DNA of 18,156 nt. It comes from Spirochaetaceae bacterium. GTDB lineage: Bacteria; Spirochaetota; Spirochaetia; SZUA-6; Bin103. Below, piece by piece: positions 1,475-17,114 of the stretch. The notes beneath the pieces are model-generated. The model worked only from the letters and a program-made list of their open reading frames with translations. It was not told the origin of the DNA and ran no database searches. The stretch spans positions 1 through 18,156 of the forward strand of contig JAPOQV010000612.1 of the NCBI GenBank assembly GCA_026710565.1, written 5' to 3'. Made by a program: the position numbers and the translations under genes. Position 1 is the first letter of the stretch. Each line of letters opens with the position of its first letter.

Positions 1475-3028
1475 CTAAATCTTGTCGACCAGGATCGCGC
1501 ACTTGCCCGAGGGAATGGGCAAGGTCTTGCGGCGGCGCCCCAGGACGTGGATCGCCAGATAGTAGAGCTTCTCGGACTCCAGGCGCACTTCCCAGCCGCG
1601 ATCCGAGTTGTGGGTCTGGATGGACACCAGGTTGCGCTTCAGGGTCAGGTTCTCGATCCCCATGCCCTCCAGTACCGGCAGCGTCCAGTCCACGGTCTTG
1701 CGAGGGAGTGAGATCGAGAGGCCCAGCACGTTCTCGATCACCAGCGCGACCGTGGACAGGGCGACGAACGGCAGGTACGACTTGCGGGGAAAGCCTCCCT
1801 TGCCGTGCCACTTGGCCGCCGCCTCGTGCTCGGGCGCATAGGCGTCCCACAGGTCGCCGACTCCACGTTCCGGGACCAGCACGTCGTGCATGGCGAACAG
1901 GTGGCGCAACGCGAACTCCCGCGCCATGCCGATGTTTCCGTAGCGCTCCAGCCCCTTGACGATCGCGTAGTTCGCGTAGGGCAGCACCGATCCCCGGTAG
2001 CCGCCGCCGTGCGGGTCGTAGAGCGCCTCGTCGGCCGCCAGGCTCGGGAACGGATGGCTCCGGCCGAAGGTCCGGGGGTCGCTCAGGTGGCCGATCAGCC
2101 GGCGCGCCTTGTCCTCGCTCGGAATCTCCGCCAACAGCGTCCAGAACGCCGCGATCGTCTTGACCTTGAGCTGCTGTCCGTAGCGGTCCAGGTCGTAGTA
2201 GATCGAGTCCTCCTCGTTCCACATGAGCGACTGGATGCGCGTCTTCAGGGCGAAGTACTCGCGCTTGTAGCGGAAGGCGACCTCCTTGTCGTTCAGCGCG
2301 TCGGCGATGGTCGAGATGAAGGACGCGCTGGCCGCCTGCTGCGCATTGAAATCCACCGGATAGGCGATGCGGTCGCGGGGGCTGTTGCCCATGCTCAGAG
2401 CCTGGCGCGGAACCGCCAGCAGGCCGTTGTCCCGGCGGAAGCTGGCCTGGATCCACTGGTAGTAGCGTTCCAGGACCGGCAGCACCTCGCGCAGGCGCCG
2501 CTTGGAGCCGAGGCGGTGGTACAGGTTGTACTCCGCCCACGCGAACAGGGGCGCCTGCACGCCGTGCGGGTTCGCCTTGATCAGGATGGGCTGCCCGTCG
2601 ACCAGGCTGTATTCGCCGTGAATGGCGCCGCACGGCTGCTGCTTGGCGTAGAATGCGTCGAGCTGGGCCTCCACCGGAAACTCCCGGTTCGAGTACACCA
2701 GCGAGAAGGTGGAGCAGCAGGCGGCCACCTGGTTCATGCGGTCCTGCGCCGGATCGCAGAATACCCGGTCGAAACCGCTTCCCGGCTCGCCCCGGCGCCA
2801 ATAGCCGGGCATCAGCTCCCAGGTGGCATCGAACAGGTCGACGAGCGCCTGGTGGTCGTGGACGAGGCGGGGAAGCTCCTCCCTCGTGGTGTTCACGACC
2901 GGTGCCTGCTGCGGAACTGCTACGTTGGAGATGACTGGTGCCTGCAAGAGAGAAGCGCGGGAAGTGTGGCCTGCGATCATAGCACGGGCCGCGGTTCCGA
3001 TGTCAAAGCGGAGCAGGTCCGTGGCCAC
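1475..3028 (-). CDS. Trehalase/GH63-like (alpha/alpha)6-barrel glycoside hydrolase
   Basis: A protein of about 517 residues, rich in aromatic residues and Trp/Tyr/Asp/Gly motifs as in (alpha/alpha)6-barrel glycosidases of the trehalase (GH37) and GH63 / mannosylglycerate-hydrolase-like group. Examples are PGYWRRGEPGSGFDRVF, a central LVDGQPILIKANPHGVQAPLFAWAEYNLYHR, NEEDSIYYDLDRYGQQLKVKT (a common glucosidase-type acidic segment) and GGGYRGSVLPYANYAIVKGLERYG. The family hydrolyses or remodels alpha-glucosides or mannosylglycerate-type solutes, but the substrate cannot be read from sequence. No export signal is evident, so it is probably cytosolic. Start is uncertain: GTG 3028 has AATAGT seven bases upstream and no ribosome site; ATG 2980 and TTG 2947 are alternatives. 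The gene is convergent with recR and divergent from gatC (46 bp). Confidence 0.75.
   Translation of the reverse strand: MATDLLRFDIGTAARAMIAGHTSRASLLQAPVISNVAVPQQAPVVNTTREELPRLVHDHQALVDLFDATWELMPGYWRRGEPGSGFDRVFCDPAQDRMNQVAACCSTFSLVYSNREFPVEAQLDAFYAKQQPCGAIHGEYSLVDGQPILIKANPHGVQAPLFAWAEYNLYHRLGSKRRLREVLPVLERYYQWIQASFRRDNGLLAVPRQALSMGNSPRDRIAYPVDFNAQQAASASFISTIADALNDKEVAFRYKREYFALKTRIQSLMWNEEDSIYYDLDRYGQQLKVKTIAAFWTLLAEIPSEDKARRLIGHLSDPRTFGRSHPFPSLAADEALYDPHGGGYRGSVLPYANYAIVKGLERYGNIGMAREFALRHLFAMHDVLVPERGVGDLWDAYAPEHEAAAKWHGKGGFPRKSYLPFVALSTVALVIENVLGLSISLPRKTVDWTLPVLEGMGIENLTLKRNLVSIQTHNSDRGWEVRLESEKLYYLAIHVLGRRRKTLPIPSGKCAILVDKI
3001..3006 (-). promoter_or_regulatory. Possible internal promoter for the glycoside hydrolase (-35 TTGACA, -10 at 2976-2981)
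   Basis: On the minus strand TTGACA (3006 to 3001) is followed after 19 nt by TGC-TATGAT (hexamer 2981 to 2976), an extended -10. If used, the transcript would begin near 2968 and translation would start at a downstream codon such as TTG 2947, shortening the protein's N-terminus. The 19-nt spacer is long, so this is tentative. Confidence 0.3.
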
Positions 3029-7504: not shown

Positions 7505-7564
7505 CGACTCGGCCGGTTCTCCGATCAGGCCGGCCGATGCCGCTCTGTTCGCCACGTAGGTGAC

Positions 7565-7608
7565 CCCCACCGCTTCCGGGAATAGGTGGGGCCGCCGCGA
7601 ACGGCGGC
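7565..7608 (+). terminator. Tandem GC-rich hairpins downstream of aspS
   Basis: CCCCACC (7565-7571) pairs with GGTGGGG (7585-7591) around a 13-nt loop. CCGCCG (7592-7597) then pairs with CGGCGG (7602-7607) around a CGAA tetraloop, extendable to 7 bp. The pair lies 60 bp after the aspS stop and just before the recombinase remnant. There is no T tract, so an intrinsic terminator is possible but unproven. The 107-bp interval otherwise holds nothing I recognise. Confidence 0.4.
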
Positions 7609-7611
7609 GAC

Positions 7612-8090
7612 TCGCTCGCAGGGTTGCGCGACGGCGCCCTGCTCCGGGTCATGTCCGACACGCTGGCGCGGATCTCCGAAGTTGTCAGCGCTCCAGGTGT
7701 CCGACGTGGAAGCCACCGGCGACGGCGGCACCGTGACCATCCGCGCCTCGAAGACAGACCAGCAGGGGGACGGCGCGGTGCGGTTCCTCGGCGCTCCCAC
7801 GGTCGCGCCCGTGCAGCGCTACATCGAAGCCGCCGGCATCACCGACGGGCCGCTGTTCCGGCGGATCCGCAAGGGCGGCCACGTCACCGACGCCGGGCTG
7901 GGCGCCGATTCGATCCGGGCGATCGTCCGCACGCGCGCGGCGGCCGTCGACGGGATCGCCGGCCGGATCGGCGGTCACTCGCTACGGGTCGGCTCGGCGC
8001 GCGAGCTCGCCGCCGACGGCGCGTCCCTGGTCGAGCTCCAGCACGCGGGCGGATGGCGCTCGCCGACCACGCCGGCGGTCTATCTAGGTC
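7612..8090 (+). pseudogene. Tyrosine recombinase (phage-type integrase) catalytic-domain remnant, copy 1
   Basis: Reading from about 7615, LAGLRDGALLRVMSDTLARISEV is the start of a tyrosine-recombinase catalytic domain with its first Arg (ARISE). One extra base near 7684-7688 then shifts the frame to SALQVSDVEATGDGGTV. From there the catalytic Lys (ASKTDQQG), the HxxR box (GGHSLRVGSARELAADGAS), the GGWRSP box and a Tyr (PAVYLG) all follow at normal spacing. The N-terminal core-binding domain is missing, and the sequence diverges just after the nucleophile Tyr at about 8088. The gene is therefore 5'-truncated, frameshifted and probably 3'-truncated. A 66-nt segment (8018-8083) recurs in copy 3 (10180-10245) with six mismatches by my count. 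The intact protein would have catalysed site-specific DNA integration or excision. Confidence 0.82.
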
Positions 8091-8612
8091 GAACATCCGG
8101 TCCGGGATGTCGACCCGGTAAATTTCCCGGCCTTCGAGCCGGTAGATCACCCGGTCGGAGCCGTCGACAAGCTGTTGCAAGAACGCCACTAGGACTAGGG
8201 CCTCGGTCGAGAGCCCGACGATCGTCGCTGTACGGGCCAGGCCGTCACCCTCGAATACCGCCTCGACTCGGAAGGCCGGGTTACTCCCGACTCGGACGTC
8301 GACCCATATCTGCCGGAGCGTACCGGATTCGAGATACTGGCTCCCCAGGGACGGATGGAGGACGCCGTCATCCCCGATGGTGACGTAGACCGCGTCGAGG
8401 CCGACAGAGTATTCGAGCCGCAGTAGGCCTCCGGGCGTGGCGCCGCAGCGATGGATGAAGACCGACGAGACCTTGTCCGTGAACTGGTCGACCGCAGAGT
8501 CGAGCCTGCAGCGGCCGATCGTCAGGCCGTCTTTCTGTTGGGCGAAGACGGCGCCCGTCGCCGTAAGTACGAACAGCGCCCCAGGGCGCTCGACCGAAGG
8601 TTCCTCATCCAA
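7884..8612 (-). CDS. Hypothetical exported protein, weakly VasI-like; C-terminus chimeric over the recombinase remnant
   Basis: The first ~175 residues (8612 to about 8088) look like a genuine protein. A hydrophobic segment ALFVLTATGAVFAQQ resembles a signal peptide ending A-x-A, though the N-region is oddly acidic. FTDKVSSVFIHRCGATPGG and a later beta-rich region with LSTEALVLVAFLQQLVDGSDRVIYRLEG and YRVDIP follow. The pattern (a C-containing strand, a polar patch, then FL..L and a final strand) loosely resembles VasI-like periplasmic proteins; this is a weak impression. Beyond 8088 the frame continues about 70 residues antisense to recombinase copy 1, giving an Arg/Pro-rich tail, so the natural C-terminus has probably been lost. 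TTG 8612 follows GGGAGGA by three bases. The function is unknown. Confidence 0.5.
   Translation of the reverse strand: MDEEPSVERPGALFVLTATGAVFAQQKDGLTIGRCRLDSAVDQFTDKVSSVFIHRCGATPGGLLRLEYSVGLDAVYVTIGDDGVLHPSLGSQYLESGTLRQIWVDVRVGSNPAFRVEAVFEGDGLARTATIVGLSTEALVLVAFLQQLVDGSDRVIYRLEGREIYRVDIPDRMFDLDRPPAWSASAIRPRAGARPGTRRRRRARAPSRPVASDRRSGRRSRRRPPRACGRSPGSNRRPARRR
8018..8083 (+). repeat. 66-nt recombinase-derived direct repeat (with 10180-10245)
   Basis: The two 66-nt segments cover the LVE(L/V)QxAGGWRSPTT-to-Tyr region of recombinase copies 1 and 3 and differ at six positions by my count. The first ~24 nt also match copy 2 (9583-9606) less well. Homologous recombination between them would delete about 2.1 kb of cargo. 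Confidence 0.75.
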
Positions 8613-8788
8613 GGGTCCTCCCTCTCATGTCGGCGGCCTCGTTCATCGGGAGCCGCGTCCGCCCGCGCCGCCAAGGACGCGCTCCGGGTCGACGGCGGTT
8701 GACCGGCCGCTGATGGAGCCGGCGGTCGCCAGCTCCGGCGGCCAGATGCTCGGGCGTGCGGTCGCCCGCGACGGCCGCGAGTGAGCCT
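8613..8788. other. Short intergenic stretch, nothing recognised
   Basis: These 176 bases separate two minus-strand genes. They hold the Shine-Dalgarno of the 8612 gene (GGGAGGA on the minus strand, 8616-8622). A plus-strand frame can be read through most of it but resembles nothing I know. Confidence 0.3.
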
Positions 8789-9247
8789 TCAAGCGTTCAC
8801 AGCCACCGCGCGGGCGTACTTACGCTCAATCACGACTATCAGACCCCGCACCGCCCACAGGCTGACCGGCAGGACCAACGTAAGTGCCACCCACAGATCA
8901 GCGGCCGTCCCGGCGGCAGTGCCGAGTGCCCAGCTCGCGACAGCGAACAGGACGCCGCCGACCAGGGATAGGCGCCAAGTCAGCGCCCACCACGCGGCGA
9001 ACACCCACGGCCACGGCACGCGCACCAGCCTCCGCACCGCCCACAAGCTGACTGTCAGCCATACCACGGAGCCCACTGCGGTGCCCGCCAGCGTGCCGCC
9101 TGTGCTGAGTAGCGCGTTAGCTCCGAGGGTCAGCGGGCTGCCGATCAGGATCAGGCGCCAGACCAACCCCCACCAGGTGCCGAGCACCAGCATCCGACGC
9201 ACGGTGCGGTCCTCCGCTACTGCGGAGCCCAGGTCCTTGGGGGTCAT
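8789..9247 (-). CDS. Small integral membrane protein with an internal duplication
   Basis: The 152-residue protein is strongly hydrophobic, with about four membrane segments and Arg clusters at their ends. Its two halves are repeats: WWGLVWRLILIG (25-36) matches WWALTWRLSLVG (86-97), and SLWAVRRLV (67-75) matches SLWAVRGLI (129-137), a period of about 62 residues. The duplication is still visible in DNA: 8846-8866 and 9032-9052 differ by one base, offset 186 nt. The hydrophobicity and conserved repeat frame argue that this is or recently was a real gene. ATG 9247 has no clear ribosome site. I do not recognise the family. It lies in the recombinase-remnant region with other exported minus-strand products. 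Confidence 0.6.
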   Translation of the reverse strand: MTPKDLGSAVAEDRTVRRMLVLGTWWGLVWRLILIGSPLTLGANALLSTGGTLAGTAVGSVVWLTVSLWAVRRLVRVPWPWVFAAWWALTWRLSLVGGVLFAVASWALGTAAGTAADLWVALTLVLPVSLWAVRGLIVVIERKYARAVAVNA

Positions 9248-9525
9248 GCGCGCGCCGCCCGCGTTTCGGCATCGGCGGACAGATAGCGGCGAGTCGTGGC
9301 GTGGATCATCCGCAGGGGACCATACGATACCCGCGGATCCCGCGAATCAGGGGGTACCTCTACCCTTCCCCGCCTTCGGAAAAACACCTCACAGGCAATC
9401 CTCGTGCGTCGTTTCTGTCGACCACGGCGGCAACTCCCGGGCCGGCAGGGTGCCCGGACCGCCCAGGAACCACCGCCCGGCGGCCACCAAGGGGCGTCAG
9501 GGCGCCGCGGGGTTCGAACCCCAGC
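9248..9525. other. Intergenic stretch between membrane protein and recombinase copy 2
   Basis: No convincing gene in these 278 bases. A hyphenated inverted repeat sits at its right edge: GGCGC (9501-9505), the perfect palindrome GGGGTTCGAACCCC (9509-9522) and GCGCC (9524-9528). It resembles a tRNA T-arm, but no D-arm, anticodon arm or matching acceptor strand is present. Confidence 0.4.
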
Positions 9526-9610
9526 GCCGGAGCGATCGGCTACTCGCTCTGGGTTGGTTCAACCCGCGAGCTCGCCGCCGCCGGCGCGGCCCTGGTCGAG
9601 CTCCGGCGCC
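9526..9610 (+). pseudogene. Tyrosine recombinase remnant, copy 2
   Basis: About 85 bp align with 7966-8035 of copy 1. The translation IGYSLWVGSTRELAAAGAALVEL corresponds to IGGHSLRVGSARELAADGASLVEL. A three-base deletion and substitutions have removed both residues of the catalytic HxxR box (now YSLW). Similarity stops at about 9610, before the GGWRSP box, so this piece cannot be functional. A minus-strand lipoprotein gene ends 43 bp further on. Confidence 0.7.
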
Positions 9611-9652
9611 CCGAACGGTTCACCGCGTCAGCGTGCCGGAGGCGCTCTGGGA

Positions 9653-10120
9653 TCATCGGGGCGGGACTACCACAACGCGCAACTGGGAGCCGCCTTCGAG
9701 GTTAGCGGCCACCGCAGCCGTCCCGATCGCGTCGGGTGAGTCGATCTGCAAGCCCACAAAGCCCGGCGAGTAAACGAACATTGTCGTTGCTACTACCAGA
9801 TCGTCCCACTGGAACACGTCCGGCAGCGACCGCCAAGAGTCATGCGACCTGCGATACCGCCAGTGCGCGACTACGATACCGCTGTCAAAGGTCTCTTGCG
9901 TTACTTCTGGCATGCTCCATAGCACCGTGGCTATCTGGCCATCGGTCGAAAAGCTGAAGTCAGCCGACTGAATCGTGAACACTCTGGTCGTGATTGCCGT
10001 ATTGCCAGCAGGGCCAGCAGGGCCAGCAGGGCCGGCCACCGGCGTCGTCTGTTCGCACGCCATCAGGAGCGTGCCCAACAAGGCCGTGCCCACCAGCGCG
10101 GTCATCACTCTCGCTTTCAT
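9653..10120 (-). CDS. Small lipoprotein with a short collagen-like Gly-Pro-Ala stretch
   Basis: The 155-residue product begins MKARVMTALVGTALLGTLLMAC, a classic lipoprotein signal peptide with the lipobox LLMAC. After lipidation at that Cys the mature chain starts EQTTPVAGPAGPAGPAGN, three Gly-Pro-Ala triplets encoded by a 9-nt tandem repeat (10004-10030). The rest is a beta-rich domain with several Trp and Asp residues and a natural-looking end GSQLRVVVVPPR. I do not recognise the family; the surface location is inferred from the signal. ATG 10120 has no Shine-Dalgarno, but TATACT (10134 to 10129) lies eight bases upstream, so the transcript is probably leaderless. It lies between recombinase copies 2 and 3. 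Confidence 0.68.
   Translation of the reverse strand: MKARVMTALVGTALLGTLLMACEQTTPVAGPAGPAGPAGNTAITTRVFTIQSADFSFSTDGQIATVLWSMPEVTQETFDSGIVVAHWRYRRSHDSWRSLPDVFQWDDLVVATTMFVYSPGFVGLQIDSPDAIGTAAVAANLEGGSQLRVVVVPPR
10004..10030 (+). repeat. 9-nt tandem repeat (unit gccagcagg, three copies)
   Basis: Three exact copies plus a degenerate fourth encode the Gly-Pro-Ala triplets of the lipoprotein on the minus strand. Such repeats can expand or contract by slippage and remain in frame. Confidence 0.85.
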
Positions 10121-10128
10121 GGCGGCGG

Positions 10129-10134
10129 AGTATA
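10129..10134 (-). promoter_or_regulatory. -10 element TATACT for the lipoprotein gene
   Basis: TATACT (five of six consensus bases) lies eight bases before ATG 10120 on the minus strand, with no ribosome site between. No good -35 is seen at 16-18 nt. Confidence 0.4.
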
Positions 10135-10167
10135 GGTTGGGCGCCGGGAAGCCGCCAGAACCGCCGG

Positions 10168-10309
10168 GGCGTCGCCAGCGGCGCGTTCCTGGTCGAGGTC
10201 CAGCAGGCGGGCGGATGGCGCTCGCCGACCACGCTGCCGGTCTACGTGCGCCGCCGAGTCCGCCCGCTACGGGCCGGTCGCCCGCCGGCGGTACGGGGTG
10301 GGGCAGTAG
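10168..10309 (+). pseudogene. Tyrosine recombinase 3'-end remnant, copy 3
   Basis: SGAFLVEVQQAGGWRSPTTLPVYVR is the end of a recombinase catalytic domain, including the GGWRSP box and the nucleophile Tyr. After YVR the frame shifts by one base. The shifted frame reads AAESARYGPVARRRYGVGQ and then TAG (10307-10309), which looks like the true recombinase C-terminus. Everything upstream of the LVEV box is missing. A minus-strand gene ends 50 bp further on. Confidence 0.75.
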
Positions 10310-10328
10310 GCGGGGGCGCACTACTACA

Positions 10329-10350
10329 GCGCCGGCGCGACGGCCGGCGC
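10329..10350. terminator. Perfect 8-bp GC hairpin between convergent genes
   Basis: GCGCCGGC (10329-10336) pairs with GCCGGCGC (10343-10350) around the loop GCGACG. It lies between the stop of recombinase copy 3 (10309) and the stop of the minus-strand gene (10359), so it could terminate both. It lacks a T tract. Confidence 0.4.
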
Positions 10351-10358
10351 CCGGAACC

Positions 10359-10649
10359 TCAGCCTACGGCAAGAATCGCGTTAGCGATCGAGCGCAGGGC
10401 ACTAGCGATTGCTCTTGCGTCCGCCGAAGCTCCGTACTGCACAGGCACCGGCAGGGCGTCAGTACCGTTCACCGACGGCACCAGGGGCGCGGCGCCCGCG
10501 ATCGCGTCTACCAGGCGGCCGAACTTCACCACGGCCACAGTGCCAAGGGTCAGCGTCCAGACGCCGCCCACGATCGCCAGCGCCGTAAGGATCGGTCGAT
10601 GCTTCATGCAGACGATCATCGGCAGGTGTCCGACCGGCCGGGAATCCAT
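10359..10649 (-). CDS. Small protein with one N-terminal membrane segment, hypothetical
   Basis: From ATG 10607 the product begins MKHRPILTALAIVGGVWTLTLGTVAVV, a positively charged end followed by a long hydrophobic segment: a signal anchor or uncleaved signal peptide. About 55 residues of Ala/Val/Asp-rich sequence follow, ending ASALRSIANAILAVG. The open frame extends upstream to ATG 10649, but the extra 14 residues do not look natural. No ribosome site is evident at any of these starts. It is the third minus-strand exported or membrane product placed tail-to-tail with a recombinase 3' end. The family is unknown. Confidence 0.45.
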   Translation of the reverse strand: MDSRPVGHLPMIVCMKHRPILTALAIVGGVWTLTLGTVAVVKFGRLVDAIAGAAPLVPSVNGTDALPVPVQYGASADARAIASALRSIANAILAVG

Positions 10650-10734
10650 GCACCAGCGCCACCACGGCGCCCAGGTGCAGCGCAGCCACGCCGGGGGTAC
10701 CCTCTTTTTTACACGACCACGGCCGCAGAACGCC

Positions 10735-11379
10735 GCTCACGCCAGCCTCAAGCACACCGTGGCCGCGCTCAAGCCGCGGCTGCTCATCCTCGACCCGTTC
10801 GTGCGCCTGCACCGCGTCGACGAGAACCCAGTGGCGAAATCGCCCCGTTGCTCGCCTATCTGCGCGAACTGCAACGCCGCCATCAACTCGCCGTCCTGGT
10901 CGTGCATCACGCCAGGAAGGCCGCCCATCGCCTGCGCGACGGCCAAGCGCTGCGCGGCTCATCGGAGTTTCACGCCTAGGGGGACTGCAACCTGTATCTG
11001 CGCCGTCTCGACGACTCGCTCACCCTCACCGTCGAGCACCGCGCCGGCGCCGATTCCGCTCATCCTGCGCGCCGACGACGATACGGTCGCCCTGGACGTC
11101 CGCGACCGGCCGCCGCCGCTCACGTCAGCCTCGCCGTCGCTCGATGAGCGCATCGCCACCGCCCTCGCGGCCGCTTGCCCCGGTGCGCTGTCGGTCGCCG
11201 CGCTGCGTTCCCGCTGCCGCGTCCGCAACGCCACTCTCTACCGTCGCCTTGCCGCGCTGTGCAGCCAAGGCGTTCTCGTCACGTCCACCGCCGGCTATCG
11301 CCTCGCCGATGAGCCTGACGCTTCCCTTCCCGCTCTCTCTACGCCACCCGGGAACGGTACCCGGAGCTCAACCGATTAG
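10735..11379 (+). pseudogene. RepA-like AAA ATPase (plasmid/phage replication helicase type), broken 3' part
   Basis: Pieced together over three frame segments, the translation is a typical C-terminal half of a RepA/AAA_25-type ATPase. It reads LKHTVAALKPRLLILDPFVRLHRVDEN (Walker B, LLILD), then SGEIAPLLAYLRELQRRHQLAVLVVHHARK, GQALRGSSEFHA, GDCNLYLRRLDDSLTLTVEHRA and a C-terminal winged-helix-like region with VAALRSRCRVRNATLYRRLAALCSQGVL. Lesions: a frameshift near 10830; TAG at 10977-10979 where the family has Trp (FHAWGD); and a frameshift back near 11045-11055. The Walker A part is absent. Such genes sit beside integrases in integrative elements and plasmids, so this fits the recombinase fragments upstream. 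It is not functional as read. Confidence 0.82.
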
Positions 11380-11380
11380 C

Positions 11381-11584
11381 GTGCAAACAACGCCATCCAT
11401 TACCGTGCTCACGCTCACTCAAGTCATCGATCCTCGCCGGCGGGTGCGCCTTTGGCGTTGGGCCGACGTGGAGCGATGGATCACGCCGCATCTGCACGAT
11501 GCGGAGCCTTCTACAGCCGATGACATCGTAACTGCCATCAACGCCAGCCCGGAACTCCGTCGGTACGGCCGTCGGCTCTCGTAG
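11381..11584 (+). CDS. Small ORF downstream of the RepA-like pseudogene, hypothetical
   Basis: GTG 11381 opens a 67-residue frame: ITVLTLTQVIDPRRRVRLWRW, then ADVERWITPHL and a C-terminal NASPELRRYGRRLS. The Trp/Arg pattern (RRRVRLWRWADVERW) looks like real protein rather than shadow coding. Its place immediately after a RepA-like gene suggests an accessory gene of the same element. The frame is open upstream through the pseudogene, so the start is only a guess. No function is assigned. Confidence 0.4.
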   Translation: MQTTPSITVLTLTQVIDPRRRVRLWRWADVERWITPHLHDAEPSTADDIVTAINASPELRRYGRRLS

Positions 11585-11639
11585 TCGCGCCAGCGCAAGC
11601 TGAGGGTGCGCGCCGGCCTTGAGTAACGGCGTGCGTCCC

Positions 11640-12980
11640 TCAGCCGATGGTGAGGACGAGCTGGCCGCCCTTGAAGATGCGGATCTCGCCCGAGGACTCC
11701 GAGACCGCGATGCCGAGGGCGTCGGTGGCGGCGGTGATCGCCGCCGCAGCGGCGTGACGGGCGCCCAGACCCGGCGTCTGCGCCGGTGAGGCCGGGGCGC
11801 CCAGGAAGGCGCCGGCCGATTCGACCACGCCGTCCCGGCGAACGACGAAGGCGCCGTCCATCAGCGCGTACTCCTTGATGGTCTCATCGAGCGCCGGGTC
11901 GAGCAGGTTGCGCTCGTCGTCCGGGTAGCCCCGGAACGGGTTCATCACGAGCTGGCTCGTGTGGCCGAGCACGCGCTCGTGGTCGCCAACCACGAACAGC
12001 GCGCCTACCGGCCGGCCCTCGCGCCCCTGGGTGGCGAGCTCGCGGCCGATCTGCAGCACCCGCTCGAGCACCCCGCGCCGCGCCCCCTCCGCGAGGGGCT
12101 GCCGGCGGACCGAGGCGAAGGTCTCGACCTCCACGCCGACGTCCGTGACCACCACGGTGTCGAGCACGCCGGTGTCCGGCAAGCCGAAGACGCTGACGAC
12201 GCGGTCGGCGTGGTCGATCACGCCGCGCGACAACGCAAGCAGGATGGCGACCTCCACCTGGCTGGACCGCGAAGGCACGGAGAACGGGATCAGCACCTGG
12301 TCCGAGAAGCCGGCCGGCAGGGACGCCTCCGATGCCGGATGGGAGCTGGCCAGAACCGCGCGGCGCTCGATGCCGAAGCCGCCGGCGGCCCCGAACTCGC
12401 GCACCATGGGCCGGGAGACCTCGTCGACGTGCAGGATGACCGTGCTGGCCTCCACCTCCGCGGCCAGCGCGCCCGCGTGCACCAGTACGCGCGCGGATAT
12501 CCGGTCGGCGCCGGCGCGCGTGGGCGCACTGTCCGGGCCGGCGAGCAACCGGCAGACCGCCTCGGGCAGATCGGCCTGCAGCAGCCGCTCGACCAGGCGC
12601 TTGTCCCGCAGCGTGGCGGCGATGTCGGCCAGCAGCGCCACGTGCCCGTCGGGGTCCAGCGAGTCGCCCAGGATCAGAAAGATCAACGCGACGTGGCCAT
12701 CGTCGCCGCCGCTGTCGTAGTTCACGCCGTCGAAGGAGCGGCCGATCACCACGAGCGTCCGCCCGAATCCCGGGATCTGCAGGTGCGGGAACGCGATGCG
12801 GTCGGAGATGCGCGAGCTGAGCGCCAGCTCCCGCTGCCACAGGCCGTCCATCACCGCCTCTACGTCCAGCGGGCCGCCGGAGCGGGCCGCCGCCTGCACC
12901 AACTCGGCCAGCGCGGCACGCTTGTCGCGGTTGCGCAGGAACACCACCCGCTCCACGGCCACCAGCTCGCGCAACTTCAT
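11640..12980 (-). CDS. PTS EIIA-like domain fused to a DisA-type diadenylate cyclase (c-di-AMP synthase)
   Basis: A 446-residue two-module protein. Residues 1-148 resemble PtsN/fructose-type PTS EIIA: a helical start, then RIAFPHLQIPG with the phosphorylatable H66, ALIFLILGDSLDPDGHVALLADIA, and a terminal helix. Residues about 160-290 form an alpha/beta segment I cannot assign. Residues about 300-446 are a DAC domain: GALFVVGDHE, TSQLVMNPFRGYP, the DGA motif (375-377), GLGARHAAAAAITAATDALGIAVSE with R408-H409, and a final SGEIRIF strand. DAC domains condense two ATP molecules to c-di-AMP. No membrane segment is seen. The third position of the RHR motif is Ala. The fusion suggests that PTS phosphorylation tunes c-di-AMP output (inference). 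A leaderless extended -10 promoter precedes ATG 12980. Confidence 0.88.
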   Translation of the reverse strand: MKLRELVAVERVVFLRNRDKRAALAELVQAAARSGGPLDVEAVMDGLWQRELALSSRISDRIAFPHLQIPGFGRTLVVIGRSFDGVNYDSGGDDGHVALIFLILGDSLDPDGHVALLADIAATLRDKRLVERLLQADLPEAVCRLLAGPDSAPTRAGADRISARVLVHAGALAAEVEASTVILHVDEVSRPMVREFGAAGGFGIERRAVLASSHPASEASLPAGFSDQVLIPFSVPSRSSQVEVAILLALSRGVIDHADRVVSVFGLPDTGVLDTVVVTDVGVEVETFASVRRQPLAEGARRGVLERVLQIGRELATQGREGRPVGALFVVGDHERVLGHTSQLVMNPFRGYPDDERNLLDPALDETIKEYALMDGAFVVRRDGVVESAGAFLGAPASPAQTPGLGARHAAAAAITAATDALGIAVSESSGEIRIFKGGQLVLTIG

Positions 12981-12995: not shown

Positions 12996-13113
12996 CCGCC
13001 GCGCGAGCGAGTGATCCCCTAGCGTTGCGTTGCCGGCGGTGTGCCTCCGGCAGTTGAGGGCGGAATTCGCGGCTGCCGTACCGGATCGGCGGGCAGCGGC
13101 ACCCGGGACGCCG
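12996..13113. other. Intergenic region between DAC gene and subtilase
   Basis: Apart from the DAC promoter it contains a small hairpin, TGCCGG (13031-13036) with CCGGCA (13047-13052), downstream of the subtilase stop. This could be a weak terminator; there is no T tract. Confidence 0.3.
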
Positions 13114-14508
13114 CTACGGACCGGCGGGAATCGTGGAGTCGAAGTCGTCGAATCCGGCGATGAGTTCCTTCGCCTTCAGCAGGGCGTTCTCCAGGTCCAG
13201 CAGACCGTAGCCGTACACCGCGTCGATACCTGGCTCGCCGAGGTCGCGGGCCGACCTCAGCAGTACGTATCCGATCTGTTCCGGGGTGAGGGAGGGGCAC
13301 ATCTGGCTCAACACCGCGGCCGCGCCGGTCACGCGAGGCGCCGCAAACGAGGTCCCGGAAAACGCCGACGGCCGGTTGTCGTCCGGAGCGACGAGGAAGG
13401 CATTGCGGGCCGCGCCTGCGCGGACCGAATGTCCCTCCGAATCGTGGGACAGAATCCAGCCTCCTTCGGCCGACTGATCGGCGGGGCGATGATCGACCGC
13501 GCCGACGACCAGCAAGCCGCTCTTGGCGTGCATGAGTCCGATCGGACGATAGTCGTCACCCGCGTTGTCCGGAGGGAACCCGGCGTAACCTGCGACCAAG
13601 CCGCTCTGCTTGATGGCAGGTGTCGCGCGCGCCGGCGCGCCGCCCGGAAGCGCCCCGGCGGCATTGCCGCCCCCCAAGACGCTGACGTGGACGATCCTTC
13701 CTTCGGTCGAGAGGTCGCTCGTGCTGCCGGACTGTTCCGTCGGAAGTCGATCGGGCACATCGGGCGGACGGGCCGTGGCAACGGATCTGTTTTGTACAAA
13801 GAACGTATATGGGTCGAGAGGGGCGGGCCGCGATTCGCCGCCATCTTGGGCATAGACGAAGGTTGCGTTGGGCGCGTAGCGGCGCGCTACGTGGGCGACG
13901 CCGGTGCCGTGCGCCGGGGTGGAGATTTCCGGCGAAGGCCGGTCTTCGTTGAATTGGTCCAATATGAGGATCTGGACGCCGTCGCCGTTCCAGCCCGCCG
14001 CGTGCAGCGCCTCGAGTGCGTCCCGTTCGTAGTCGGTGAAGTCCAATGTTTCGGATGCGGGATAGCTCCATTCGGTCTGCGTGGGTGCGGGATTGCCGAC
14101 ACATGCGGCGGGCGAGGCGGTTGCGGACGGCGACCACGGGCCGTCGTCGCCAGCGCTGCTCGCCAGAACCTGCACGTCGTACACGGTGCCGTTGGTAAGC
14201 CCCTTGATGATGGTGGTGTAGGTCCCAATTGGAGGATGCAGCACCTCAGCGTTTGCCCAGCCTTGGGCGGAGGGCTTCCACCGCACCTTGTAGGCGACGA
14301 CCCTGACCGGCGACGCCGGCGCGTTCCAGGTAACCGAGAGCTGTTGGTGGCCCGGCGTCAGTGTCGGTTGCGCGGGGGCGCCGGGTACGAGACCGTTCAT
14401 CGATCCGTCAGCGTCCATCGGTCCTTCGCAGGAGGCGACGGCCAGCACGACTGCAAGCAGCGCGAAGCGCCGCAAGGAGTATCCGATCGACACGACGAGT
14501 CGGTCCAT
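13114..14508 (-). CDS. Subtilisin-family (S8) serine protease, lipoprotein with FnIII domain
   Basis: A 464-residue product. MDRLVVSIGYSLRRFALLAVVLAVASC is a lipoprotein signal with lipid-acceptor C27. Residues about 43-133 form a fibronectin type III domain (LSVTWNAP, VAYKVRWKP, TIIKGLTNGTVYDVQVLASS). A peptidase S8 domain follows, about 150-450: D184 in ILILDQ, H200 in HGTGVAHVA and S387 in FSGTSFAAPRVTGAAAVL, so the triad is complete. YGYGLLDLENALL is the usual C-terminal motif. The expected oxyanion Asn motif (AAGN) is not obvious; the equivalent region reads LVAGYAGFP, so activity is uncertain. No pro-domain is recognisable. It probably sits on the cell surface or in the periplasm as a protease. 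It is divergent from argS across 106 bp. Confidence 0.9.
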   Translation of the reverse strand: MDRLVVSIGYSLRRFALLAVVLAVASCEGPMDADGSMNGLVPGAPAQPTLTPGHQQLSVTWNAPASPVRVVAYKVRWKPSAQGWANAEVLHPPIGTYTTIIKGLTNGTVYDVQVLASSAGDDGPWSPSATASPAACVGNPAPTQTEWSYPASETLDFTDYERDALEALHAAGWNGDGVQILILDQFNEDRPSPEISTPAHGTGVAHVARRYAPNATFVYAQDGGESRPAPLDPYTFFVQNRSVATARPPDVPDRLPTEQSGSTSDLSTEGRIVHVSVLGGGNAAGALPGGAPARATPAIKQSGLVAGYAGFPPDNAGDDYRPIGLMHAKSGLLVVGAVDHRPADQSAEGGWILSHDSEGHSVRAGAARNAFLVAPDDNRPSAFSGTSFAAPRVTGAAAVLSQMCPSLTPEQIGYVLLRSARDLGEPGIDAVYGYGLLDLENALLKAKELIAGFDDFDSTIPAGP

Positions 14509-14524
14509 GCTGCTTCCCGCCGAC

Positions 14525-14554
14525 AGCCTAGTCGCTCTCAGCGCTGCATTTCAA
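14525..14554 (-). promoter_or_regulatory. Candidate promoter of the subtilase lipoprotein gene
   Basis: On the minus strand TTGAAA (14554 to 14549) is followed after 18 nt by TAGGCT (14530 to 14525). ATG 14508 lies 16 bases further, after a GGGAAG that may act as a weak ribosome site. This is one of the few operon-first genes here with a short leader. Confidence 0.4.
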
Positions 14555-14579
14555 CCTCACGGAATGGGAATGCACCCCC

Positions 14580-14608
14580 TTGCGTCACCTGGCCGTGAGC
14601 CGTAGCGT
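14580..14608 (+). promoter_or_regulatory. Candidate leaderless promoter of argS
   Basis: TTGCGT (14580-14585), a 17-nt spacer and TAGCGT (14603-14608) are followed by six bases and ATG 14615. There is no Shine-Dalgarno. The hexamers are weak, but the geometry matches that at the DAC and Uma2 genes. Confidence 0.4.
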
Positions 14609-16319: not shown

Positions 16320-16325
16320 TAGTGT
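16320..16325 (+). promoter_or_regulatory. -10-like TAGTGT before prlF
   Basis: TAGTGT lies five bases before ATG 16331, with no Shine-Dalgarno and no clear -35. It fits the leaderless pattern, but is weak on its own. Confidence 0.3.
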
Positions 16326-16330
16326 CGATC

Positions 16331-16651
16331 ATGTCGATCATCCACGAAATCGCCACGATGACCGCGAAAGGCCAGATCACGGTGCCTAAGCCGATCCGCC
16401 AGGCACTCGGCGTCGACGCCGGGACCAAGGTGACGTTCGAACTGCACGAGAACGGACAGGTCAGTGTGAGCCGCGCTGACGCCGAGCACGAAGACCCAGC
16501 CATCGGAGCATTTCTCGACCTGCTCGAACGCGACATTGAGGCCGGACGCCTGATCGAGCAACTGCCCGACGGTCTGGCACGGATAATGCTAGAAGACGCG
16601 GAGTTCGACGTCGATCTCCATGAGCCTATCGAGGGCGACTTGGACCTGTAG
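16331..16651 (+). CDS. prlF: PrlF-type antitoxin (AbrB/SpoVT-like DNA-binding)
   Basis: The 106-residue product starts with an AbrB/MazE swapped-hairpin domain (ATMTAKGQITVPKPIRQALGVDAGTKVTFEL, about 9-40). The PrlF-specific C-terminal part DPAIGAFLDLLERDIEAGRL...FDVDLHEPIEGDLDL follows. PrlF antitoxins bind and neutralise the YhaV ribosome-dependent RNase and autorepress the operon. The stop TAG overlaps the yhaV start by one base, the normal coupling. ATG 16331 was chosen; GTG 16322 is in frame. The gene begins only 27 bp after argS. The frame is intact while the partner toxin is broken. Confidence 0.88.
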   Translation: MSIIHEIATMTAKGQITVPKPIRQALGVDAGTKVTFELHENGQVSVSRADAEHEDPAIGAFLDLLERDIEAGRLIEQLPDGLARIMLEDAEFDVDLHEPIEGDLDL

Positions 16652-17114
16652 TGGAACGACACGGATGGAGGATCCTGTTCCATCCGGAACTGGTCAGGCA
16701 GCTCGGAAAGCTCAAGGAAGCAAGGGAGCGCGCTCGGCGAAACCCGCACGGACTTGAGTCGAATGCGAACGTCAAGCTGCTGCCGGCGGTCAACCGGGCG
16801 ATGACGGAGGCATCCCGCAGGACCCATCCCGGGTCGAGTACCGGCAGGGGAATACGCTCGGGACACGCTACCGCCACTGGCGGCGCGCCAGGATCGGCAG
16901 ACGGTTCTGACTGTTCTTCCGCTATGACGCCAGGGCAAAGGTGATCGTCTATTCATGGATGAATGACGAACGCACGGTACGGTCCTCGGGGAGCAAGACC
17001 GATCCGTACGCCGTCTTTGCCAGAATGCTCGCGCAGGGGAGTCCACCCGACGATTGGGCCTCGTTGATTACGGCTTCAAGGCGGAACCCGCAACCAGAAC
17101 AACCAGAAAGGTAA
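16651..17114 (+). pseudogene. yhaV: YhaV-type toxin (RNase), inactivated
   Basis: GTG 16651 starts GWRILFHPELVRQLGKLKEARERARRNPHGLESNANVKLLPAVNRAMTE, a good YhaV N-terminus. At about 16808 the frame shifts; the new frame reads GIPQDPSRVEYRQGNTLGTRYRHWRRARIGRRF, then TGA (16908-16910). Beyond the TGA it continues LFFRYDARAKVIVYSWMNDERTVRSSGSKTDPYAVFARMLAQGSPPDDWASL, the expected YhaV end, to TAA 17112-17114. The TGA stands where the family usually has Arg (GRFRLFFRYD), so CGA-to-TGA is likely. With one frameshift and one nonsense codon this ribonuclease toxin is dead, while its antitoxin gene upstream remains open. Confidence 0.88.

Follow-up and report, generated by a model that had tools for sequence, protein, structure and literature searches.

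An 18,156-nucleotide stretch of Spirochaetaceae DNA (the window) encodes on its minus strand, at positions 11640..12980, a 446-residue protein in which a PTS EIIA domain of the Ntr type, a pyruvate-kinase-like domain and a diadenylate cyclase (DAC) domain are fused. We tentatively propose, with doubt slightly outweighing confidence, that this protein is the cell's only c-di-AMP synthase and a direct client of a PEP-dependent Ntr phosphorelay, in which the state of H66 together with a pyruvate-kinase-like effector input would translate the PEP/nitrogen balance into a c-di-AMP level and, through it, into K+. On the same reading, a Chitinivibrionales/Fibrobacter-type clade put this switch out of action, probably on several occasions, when both active-site histidines were replaced, mostly by glutamine, so that the EIIA domain would be locked in a single state next to a cyclase that still works. 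A preliminary description of this DNA had reported the fusion and suggested control of the cyclase by PTS phosphorylation; the observation was right, the mechanism is plausible and a candidate only, the architecture is known, and the physiological context is now sharper. New here are the relay gene set of a sister genome in which the fusion is the only DAC found, the presence of a single DAC type in 40 of 45 full-fusion genomes of a second phylum, and the loss of H66 in 85 of 121 listed relatives.

Most diadenylate cyclases are not known to respond to a particular input signal. The fusion carries a candidate input, a PTS phospho-acceptor together with a pyruvate-kinase-like domain, each from a family linked to the PEP node. 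Potassium control has been studied separately through PtsN and through c-di-AMP; the fusion would join both routes, and could let cells set their potassium balance directly from carbon and nitrogen supply. The naturally H66-less relatives and the genomes without another DAC type make the question of PTS control directly testable.

Domains and active sites of the fusion protein

The open reading frame extends from an ATG at 12980 to a stop codon at 11640-11642, exactly the extent given in the preliminary description, from which the strand (minus) had been omitted; the plus-strand frame across the same positions is interrupted by a stop codon. In the alignment, the ATG matches the starts of most homologues. 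Three domains were delimited on the minus strand: EIIA at residues 1-150 (12531..12980), DacZ_P, which is pyruvate-kinase C-terminal-like, at residues 156-285 (12126..12515), and DAC at residues 294-446 (11643..12101). Pfam searches matched PTS_EIIA_2 (PF00359) to residues 13-146 (E 2.5e-15; 57.1 bits, cut-off 27), DacZ_P to residues 165-286 (E 2.5e-7; 30.9 bits, cut-off 27.4) and DAC (PF02457) to residues 316-440 (E 9e-22; 77.3 bits, cut-off 27). This HMM check bore out the earlier calls of an N-terminal EIIA and a C-terminal DAC domain, the latter with its DGA and RH motifs, and gave an identity to the middle domain, which had been called unassigned and is DacZ_P, a domain resembling the C-terminal one of pyruvate kinase. 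Structure prediction (mean pLDDT 87.8) agreed, with three stretches matching EIIA-Ntr, pyruvate-kinase C-terminal domains and DisA/CdaA. The middle domain, whose predicted fold corresponds to the effector-binding domain of pyruvate kinase, is probably a ligand sensor. In profile comparisons, PtsN came closest to the EIIA domain. Nothing speaks against the earlier reading of the fusion as a soluble enzyme. Matches to NCBIfam models, among them DacZ, PtsN, CdaA and DisA, were all sub-threshold; with all three Pfam domains over their cut-offs, the domains are sure and no full-length NCBIfam family fits.

Homologues of the fusion at E<=1e-3 numbered 658 among 7995 scored candidates. Of the 120 listed, which take in the window's own protein, 101 have all three Pfam domains, 18 have EIIA and DAC, and one (the fragment P0019) has none, so the fusion is not due to chance. 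Homologues include P0174 from Spirochaeta dissipatitropha and P0102 from Opitutus.

The 120 listed homologues were aligned with 30 loci to give 150 rows (one gene appears twice, as L001 and as L031), five of which are incomplete at the N-terminal end, leaving 145 rows scored at H66. H66 (12783..12785, minus strand) lies within AFPHLQIPG, at the position given previously, and is aligned with the histidine of the PtsN PH motif (1a6j, 4gqx), which we take to be the phosphorylation site. It is His in 143 of the 145 rows with a residue there, the exceptions being P0054 and P0094, and this conservation suggests that H66 is phosphorylated. The conserved R50 (12831..12833, minus strand), presumably the EIIA active-site arginine as in EIIA-Mtl and PtsN, is retained in as many rows, 143 of the 145 in which its position is filled. 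H113 (12642..12644, minus strand), which we assume to be the second active-site histidine of EIIA, is His in 89 and Tyr in 49 of the 150 rows, with two gaps.

The DGA, RH and Ser active-site residues of DAC are all present in the fusion. The DGA motif occupies residues 375-377 (11850..11858, minus strand), D375 and G376 each being found in 149 of 150 rows with one gap. The RH of the RHR motif is at residues 408-409 (11754..11759, minus strand; R408 in 150/150 rows, H409 in 149/150 with one gap), and its third position, residue 410, is Ala, as in 124/150 rows. S427-E428-S429 (11694..11702, minus strand) is the counterpart of S-E-E in CdaA, with S427 in 149 rows (one gap) and S429 in 147 of the 150. 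Among the residues of Listeria CdaA named in PMC7288161 as contacting ATP are Thr102 and Glu124, which correspond in the alignment to Ala407 and Ser429 of the fusion. Both changes are shared by stand-alone DacZ_P-DAC proteins (P0220, with ARHE and SES; P0192, with ARHQ and SQS), and therefore belong to the DacZ branch, not to the EIIA fusion.

Distribution, genomic context and relay proteins

Genome G001 (4.1 Mb, an uncultured Spirochaetia bacterium), which holds locus L001 at 89% identity, was used as a stand-in for the window's genome. One DAC match was found in G001, which is the fusion. G001 has one HPr gene, directly behind hprK and rpoN, and a single, PtsP-like EI that carries GAF and PEP-utiliser domains; both genes, whose presence the preliminary description had left to be checked, are thus found in the nearest genome examined. 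Four EIIA_2 matches were counted including the fusion; one of the four, rescored at the protein level, falls under the cut-off. No EIIC of PF02378, the only EIIC family searched, was found, and by this check the PTS of G001 looks regulatory. The presence of EI-Ntr, HPr and HPr kinase and the absence of PF02378 argue that a regulatory phosphorelay exists there. At L062 of G001 (100-2313), a second EIIA protein of 279 residues follows a gene of the Na+/H+ exchanger family, possibly another link from the PTS to ion transport.

Across G001 and its relatives, 22 of 61 genomes match the A1 fusion model along most of its length, and two further genomes match at the DAC end only. A second, stronger-scoring DAC match is also present in 21 of these 22 fusion genomes, G001 alone being without one. 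EI was found in 22/22 and HPr in 21/22 fusion genomes (missing in G006), with a background of 60/61 and 59/61, respectively; EI is also present in all five genomes carrying L002-L006. PF02378 passed its cut-off in 5 of these 22 genomes, and a sixth, G035, has one match below it. Six of the 61 genomes show no DAC. In G002 and G003, which head the list of G001 relatives, no DAC was found, yet HPr and EI are present. Laboratory E. coli, included as a control genome, likewise shows no DAC.

The phylum of G063, a Kiritimatiellae MAG, was represented by 288 genomes, and 47 of them gave an A1 match at E<=1e-60; 45 of these matches are full-length, and those of G180 and G311 are without the EIIA part. 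A single DAC match, scoring as weakly as the fusion usually does, was found in 39 of the 45 full-fusion genomes, and two DAC matches in the other six (G063, G101, G225, G238, G289 and G313). Both matches of G238 look DacZ-type, the second being a partial A1 match. No other DAC type was therefore found in 40 of the 45, and a DAC is present in 235 of the other 243 genomes; the genomes of this phylum are related and may be incomplete, and the 45 are not independent events. Because the fusion is the sole DAC type found in these 40 genomes, its cyclase is very likely active; lineages in which the one DAC retained is the fusion argue that it works. HPr was found in 287 of the 288 genomes, all 45 full-fusion ones included. 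The genome survey suggested previously thus found HPr and EI together with the fusion, but both are near-universal (HPr in 59/61 and 287/288), and their co-occurrence has no discriminating power.

The c-di-AMP riboswitch RF00379 was found in 0 of 61 genomes under strict filters. No conserved operon was seen in 22 loci, in which no gene cluster spans more than three loci apart from two: the fusion's own cluster, and a four-locus cluster that is probably an overlapping frame and is confined to loci where the fusion was uncalled. The simple gene caller used called the fusion in 17 of the 22 loci and missed it in L070, L071, L072, L075 and L079. Stand-alone DacZ_P-DAC proteins without EIIA exist, as in P0220 (302 residues, on a 180-kb contig). 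P0171 (318 residues, from a metagenome) is by eye almost identical to the later portion of the L035 fusion and starts without EIIA, which suggests a truncated or separately started form.

The window and L001 share the order gatA/gatB/aspS, then the fusion, then argS (gene names read from translations), at 85-89% nucleotide identity. Two stretches of the window that flank the fusion, 7507-11635 and 13001-14596, are absent from L001. The first, about 4.1 kb between aspS and the fusion, contains broken-looking frames and a weak phage-integrase match (7586-8383) below the Pfam cut-off. The second, about 1.6 kb, carries a gene with fn3 and subtilase (S8) domains (13114-14508, minus strand) and occupies the place of the fusion's upstream region. 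In L001, 70 bases separate the start of the fusion from the divergent argS frame, and only about 20 bases upstream of the fusion ATG in the window can be aligned with L001; the promoter in the window is therefore probably different from that of L001, and the fusion may now share a transcript with the S8 peptidase. Elsewhere in the window, a PrlF/MazE-type antitoxin gene lies beyond argS (16322-16651), followed by a small frame (16651-16944) without a Pfam match, and a MGH1-like/trehalase-like glycoside hydrolase gene (1475-3028, minus strand; 87% protein identity in L001) lies between recR and the gat genes.

The dN/dS values between the window and L001 (0.26 for EIIA, 0.10 for the middle domain and 0.08 for DAC) indicate that the fusion is under purifying selection between the two, with EIIA the least and DAC the most constrained domain in this one pair. 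A tree groups the window protein with the G001 copy alone, on a long branch.

Loss of H66 and proposed control of the cyclase

The fusion may be a soluble, presumably oligomeric c-di-AMP synthase under a nitrogen-type regulatory PTS, a reading for and against which we find the case evenly balanced. Phosphate would pass from PEP through EI-Ntr (PtsP) and HPr to H66 of the fused EIIA-Ntr domain, and the middle domain would pass the EIIA state, perhaps also a ligand signal, to the DAC domain. Unphosphorylated EIIA would permit cyclase activity and phospho-H66 would restrain it. With PEP plentiful relative to nitrogen, c-di-AMP would fall and K+/osmolyte uptake would be released. An effect of EIIA on DAC is suggested by the fusion itself, the direction of control by the H66-less relatives described below and by the practice of PtsN, and K+ as the putative output by known c-di-AMP biology. 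Unphosphorylated PtsN of E. coli is described in PMC13104625 as contacting TrkA, YcgO and KdpD, and these contacts with K+ systems were counted for the favoured direction.

A search with P0054 (Chitinivibrionales) returned 1363 proteins, and the 120 listed were aligned together with P0094 (121 in all, among them P0054, P0094 and P0234-P0351). Where organisms are named in this listing, they are Chitinivibrionales, Chitinispirillaceae or Fibrobacter. Position 66 is Gln in 78, His in 36, Tyr in 6 and Thr in 1 of the 121. Among the 85 listed relatives without H66, 80 are also without H113 and 75 retain R50; H113 is kept in 30 of the 36 with H66. Eleven positions of the DAC half were checked: all 85 H66-less relatives keep G319-R320-E321, N347-P348, D375-G376, R408-H409 and S427, and 84 keep A377, the remaining one having A377S. 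In this clade EIIA is kept without its phospho-acceptor beside a cyclase that appears intact, and phosphorylation would therefore not be needed there for catalysis. The best tree, made from the other two domains by a quick method and with 50 of its 127 inner branches open, needs seven changes at H66, four of which are forced by starred branches.

In the two genome sets, H66 and R50 are kept in 22/22 fusions among the relatives of G001 and in 30/30 of the G063 phylum, where the 30 full-length matches with the highest scores were taken from the 45. Position 113 holds His in all but one of the former 22 (21/22) and Tyr in all 30 of the latter, so that phosphotransfer may differ or be absent in the G063 phylum. 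Conservation of H66, which the preliminary description had named as a check on its claim, thus holds in the window's lineage (143/145, 22/22 and 30/30) but not family-wide, given its loss in 85 of the 121 listed P0054 relatives.

The H66-less relatives are the main evidence for the favoured polarity, and they feed equally an explanation in which EIIA is a phosphorylation-independent part, such as an oligomerisation or docking surface, the ligand signal enters through the pyruvate-kinase-C-like domain, and H66 is kept by ancestry or for another role. Consistent with this are the intact DAC motifs of those 85 proteins, 80 of them also without H113, the at least four H66 changes forced by starred branches, the existence of DacZ_P-DAC proteins without EIIA (P0220) and the predicted match of the middle domain to the effector-binding domain of pyruvate kinase; the invariance of H66 and R50 in 52/52 fusions sampled from two genome sets and the purifying selection on EIIA in the window lineage argue against it, and we consider it unlikely, if still a serious contender. 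In E. coli, phospho-EIIA-Glc is thought to activate adenylate cyclase. By analogy, the same logic of EIIA plus nucleotide cyclase could apply here with the polarity reversed, phospho-EIIA activating the cyclase; the retention of H66 in 143 of 145 rows would fit, and Gln at position 66 could mimic one state. The H66-less proteins, however, keep their DAC active-site residues, so phosphorylation cannot be required in them, and reversed polarity appears distinctly improbable. Control could also flow the other way: the c-di-AMP or ATP state of DAC would govern phosphate transfer by EIIA, and the protein would modulate the PTS while its cyclase activity had become secondary or had been lost. The two changed ATP-contacting positions would suit this, but it is very improbable given that DAC is the most constrained domain and that no DAC type besides the fusion was seen in 40 of the 45 full-fusion genomes, in a phylum in which 235 of the 243 others have a DAC.

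Against the favoured reading, a PTS-restrained cyclase, count the dispensability of H66 in one clade, the second DAC match in 21 of the 22 fusion genomes of the G001 set, the lack of a conserved operon in 22 loci, EIIA being the least constrained domain, and the Ala and Ser at two ATP-contact positions of CdaA, the Ser being shared with stand-alone DacZ-like proteins.

Relation to known cyclases and PTS proteins

The EIIA-DacZ_P-DAC architecture is widespread and present in Pfam, and is an already recorded class rather than a new kind. One name under which such proteins are entered in databases is 'DNA integrity scanning protein DisA with diadenylate cyclase activity/mannitol/fructose-specific...', and the Pfam models DacZ_P, DacZ_T and DACZ_N also point to a recorded class. 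DACs were earlier classified by their attached domains, and DacD representatives given in PMC6741144 are Lacunisphaera limnophila, Coraliomargarita and other Opitutae/Verrucomicrobia. P0127, from Lacunisphaera sp., is the same fusion, and from these representatives and P0127 the fusion probably belongs to the DacD class (Corrigan & Gruendling 2013); the window's member differs in that its nearest relative examined is a Spirochaetia bacterium, in keeping H113 and in its long branch. Galperin 2023 ('All DACs in a row') and Corrigan & Gruendling 2013 very probably describe this architecture, and we therefore do not claim it as unpublished; among the literature matches listed, judged by titles and the starts of abstracts, none was a paper on an EIIA-DAC fusion.

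The DacZ-type branch is described in PMC6741144 as having an N-terminal domain with PK_C fold and as including bacterial proteins, and the fusion has a PK_C-related domain N-terminal to DAC, as in the DacZ superfamily. Like DacZ of Haloferax volcanii and CdaZ of Methanocaldococcus jannaschii, it has a pyruvate-kinase-C-like domain followed by a C-terminal DAC; unlike them, it adds an N-terminal EIIA and scores 120 of the 430 bits set for the DacZ equivalog NF041371. PtsN (EIIA-Ntr) differs in that the window's EIIA is fused to an enzyme, and the score for TIGR01419 was 39.8 of 138.7 bits. Control of K+ by PtsN is established in several species; the main text of PMC13104625 is without the term c-di-AMP, and H66A and H66E in PtsN1 of Sinorhizobium fredii are reported in PMC9239096 to have opposite effects on nodule number.

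CdaA and DisA share with the fusion the DAC fold and the DGA and RH motifs, whereas the scores fell far short of the full-length cut-offs for both (32.5 of 188.8 bits for CdaA, TIGR00159; 25.8 of 201 bits for DisA, NF010009). Listeria CdaA has RHR and SEE motifs where the fusion has RHA and SES and the stand-alone P0220 has RHE and SES; unlike in DisA, DAC is the last domain in the fusion. In E. coli, the phosphorylation state of EIIA-Glc sets the cAMP level through adenylate cyclase. The fusion would resemble this system in that the amount of a nucleotide second messenger putatively depends on EIIA phosphorylation, and differs from it in being covalent, in its Ntr-type EIIA and in making c-di-AMP instead of cAMP.
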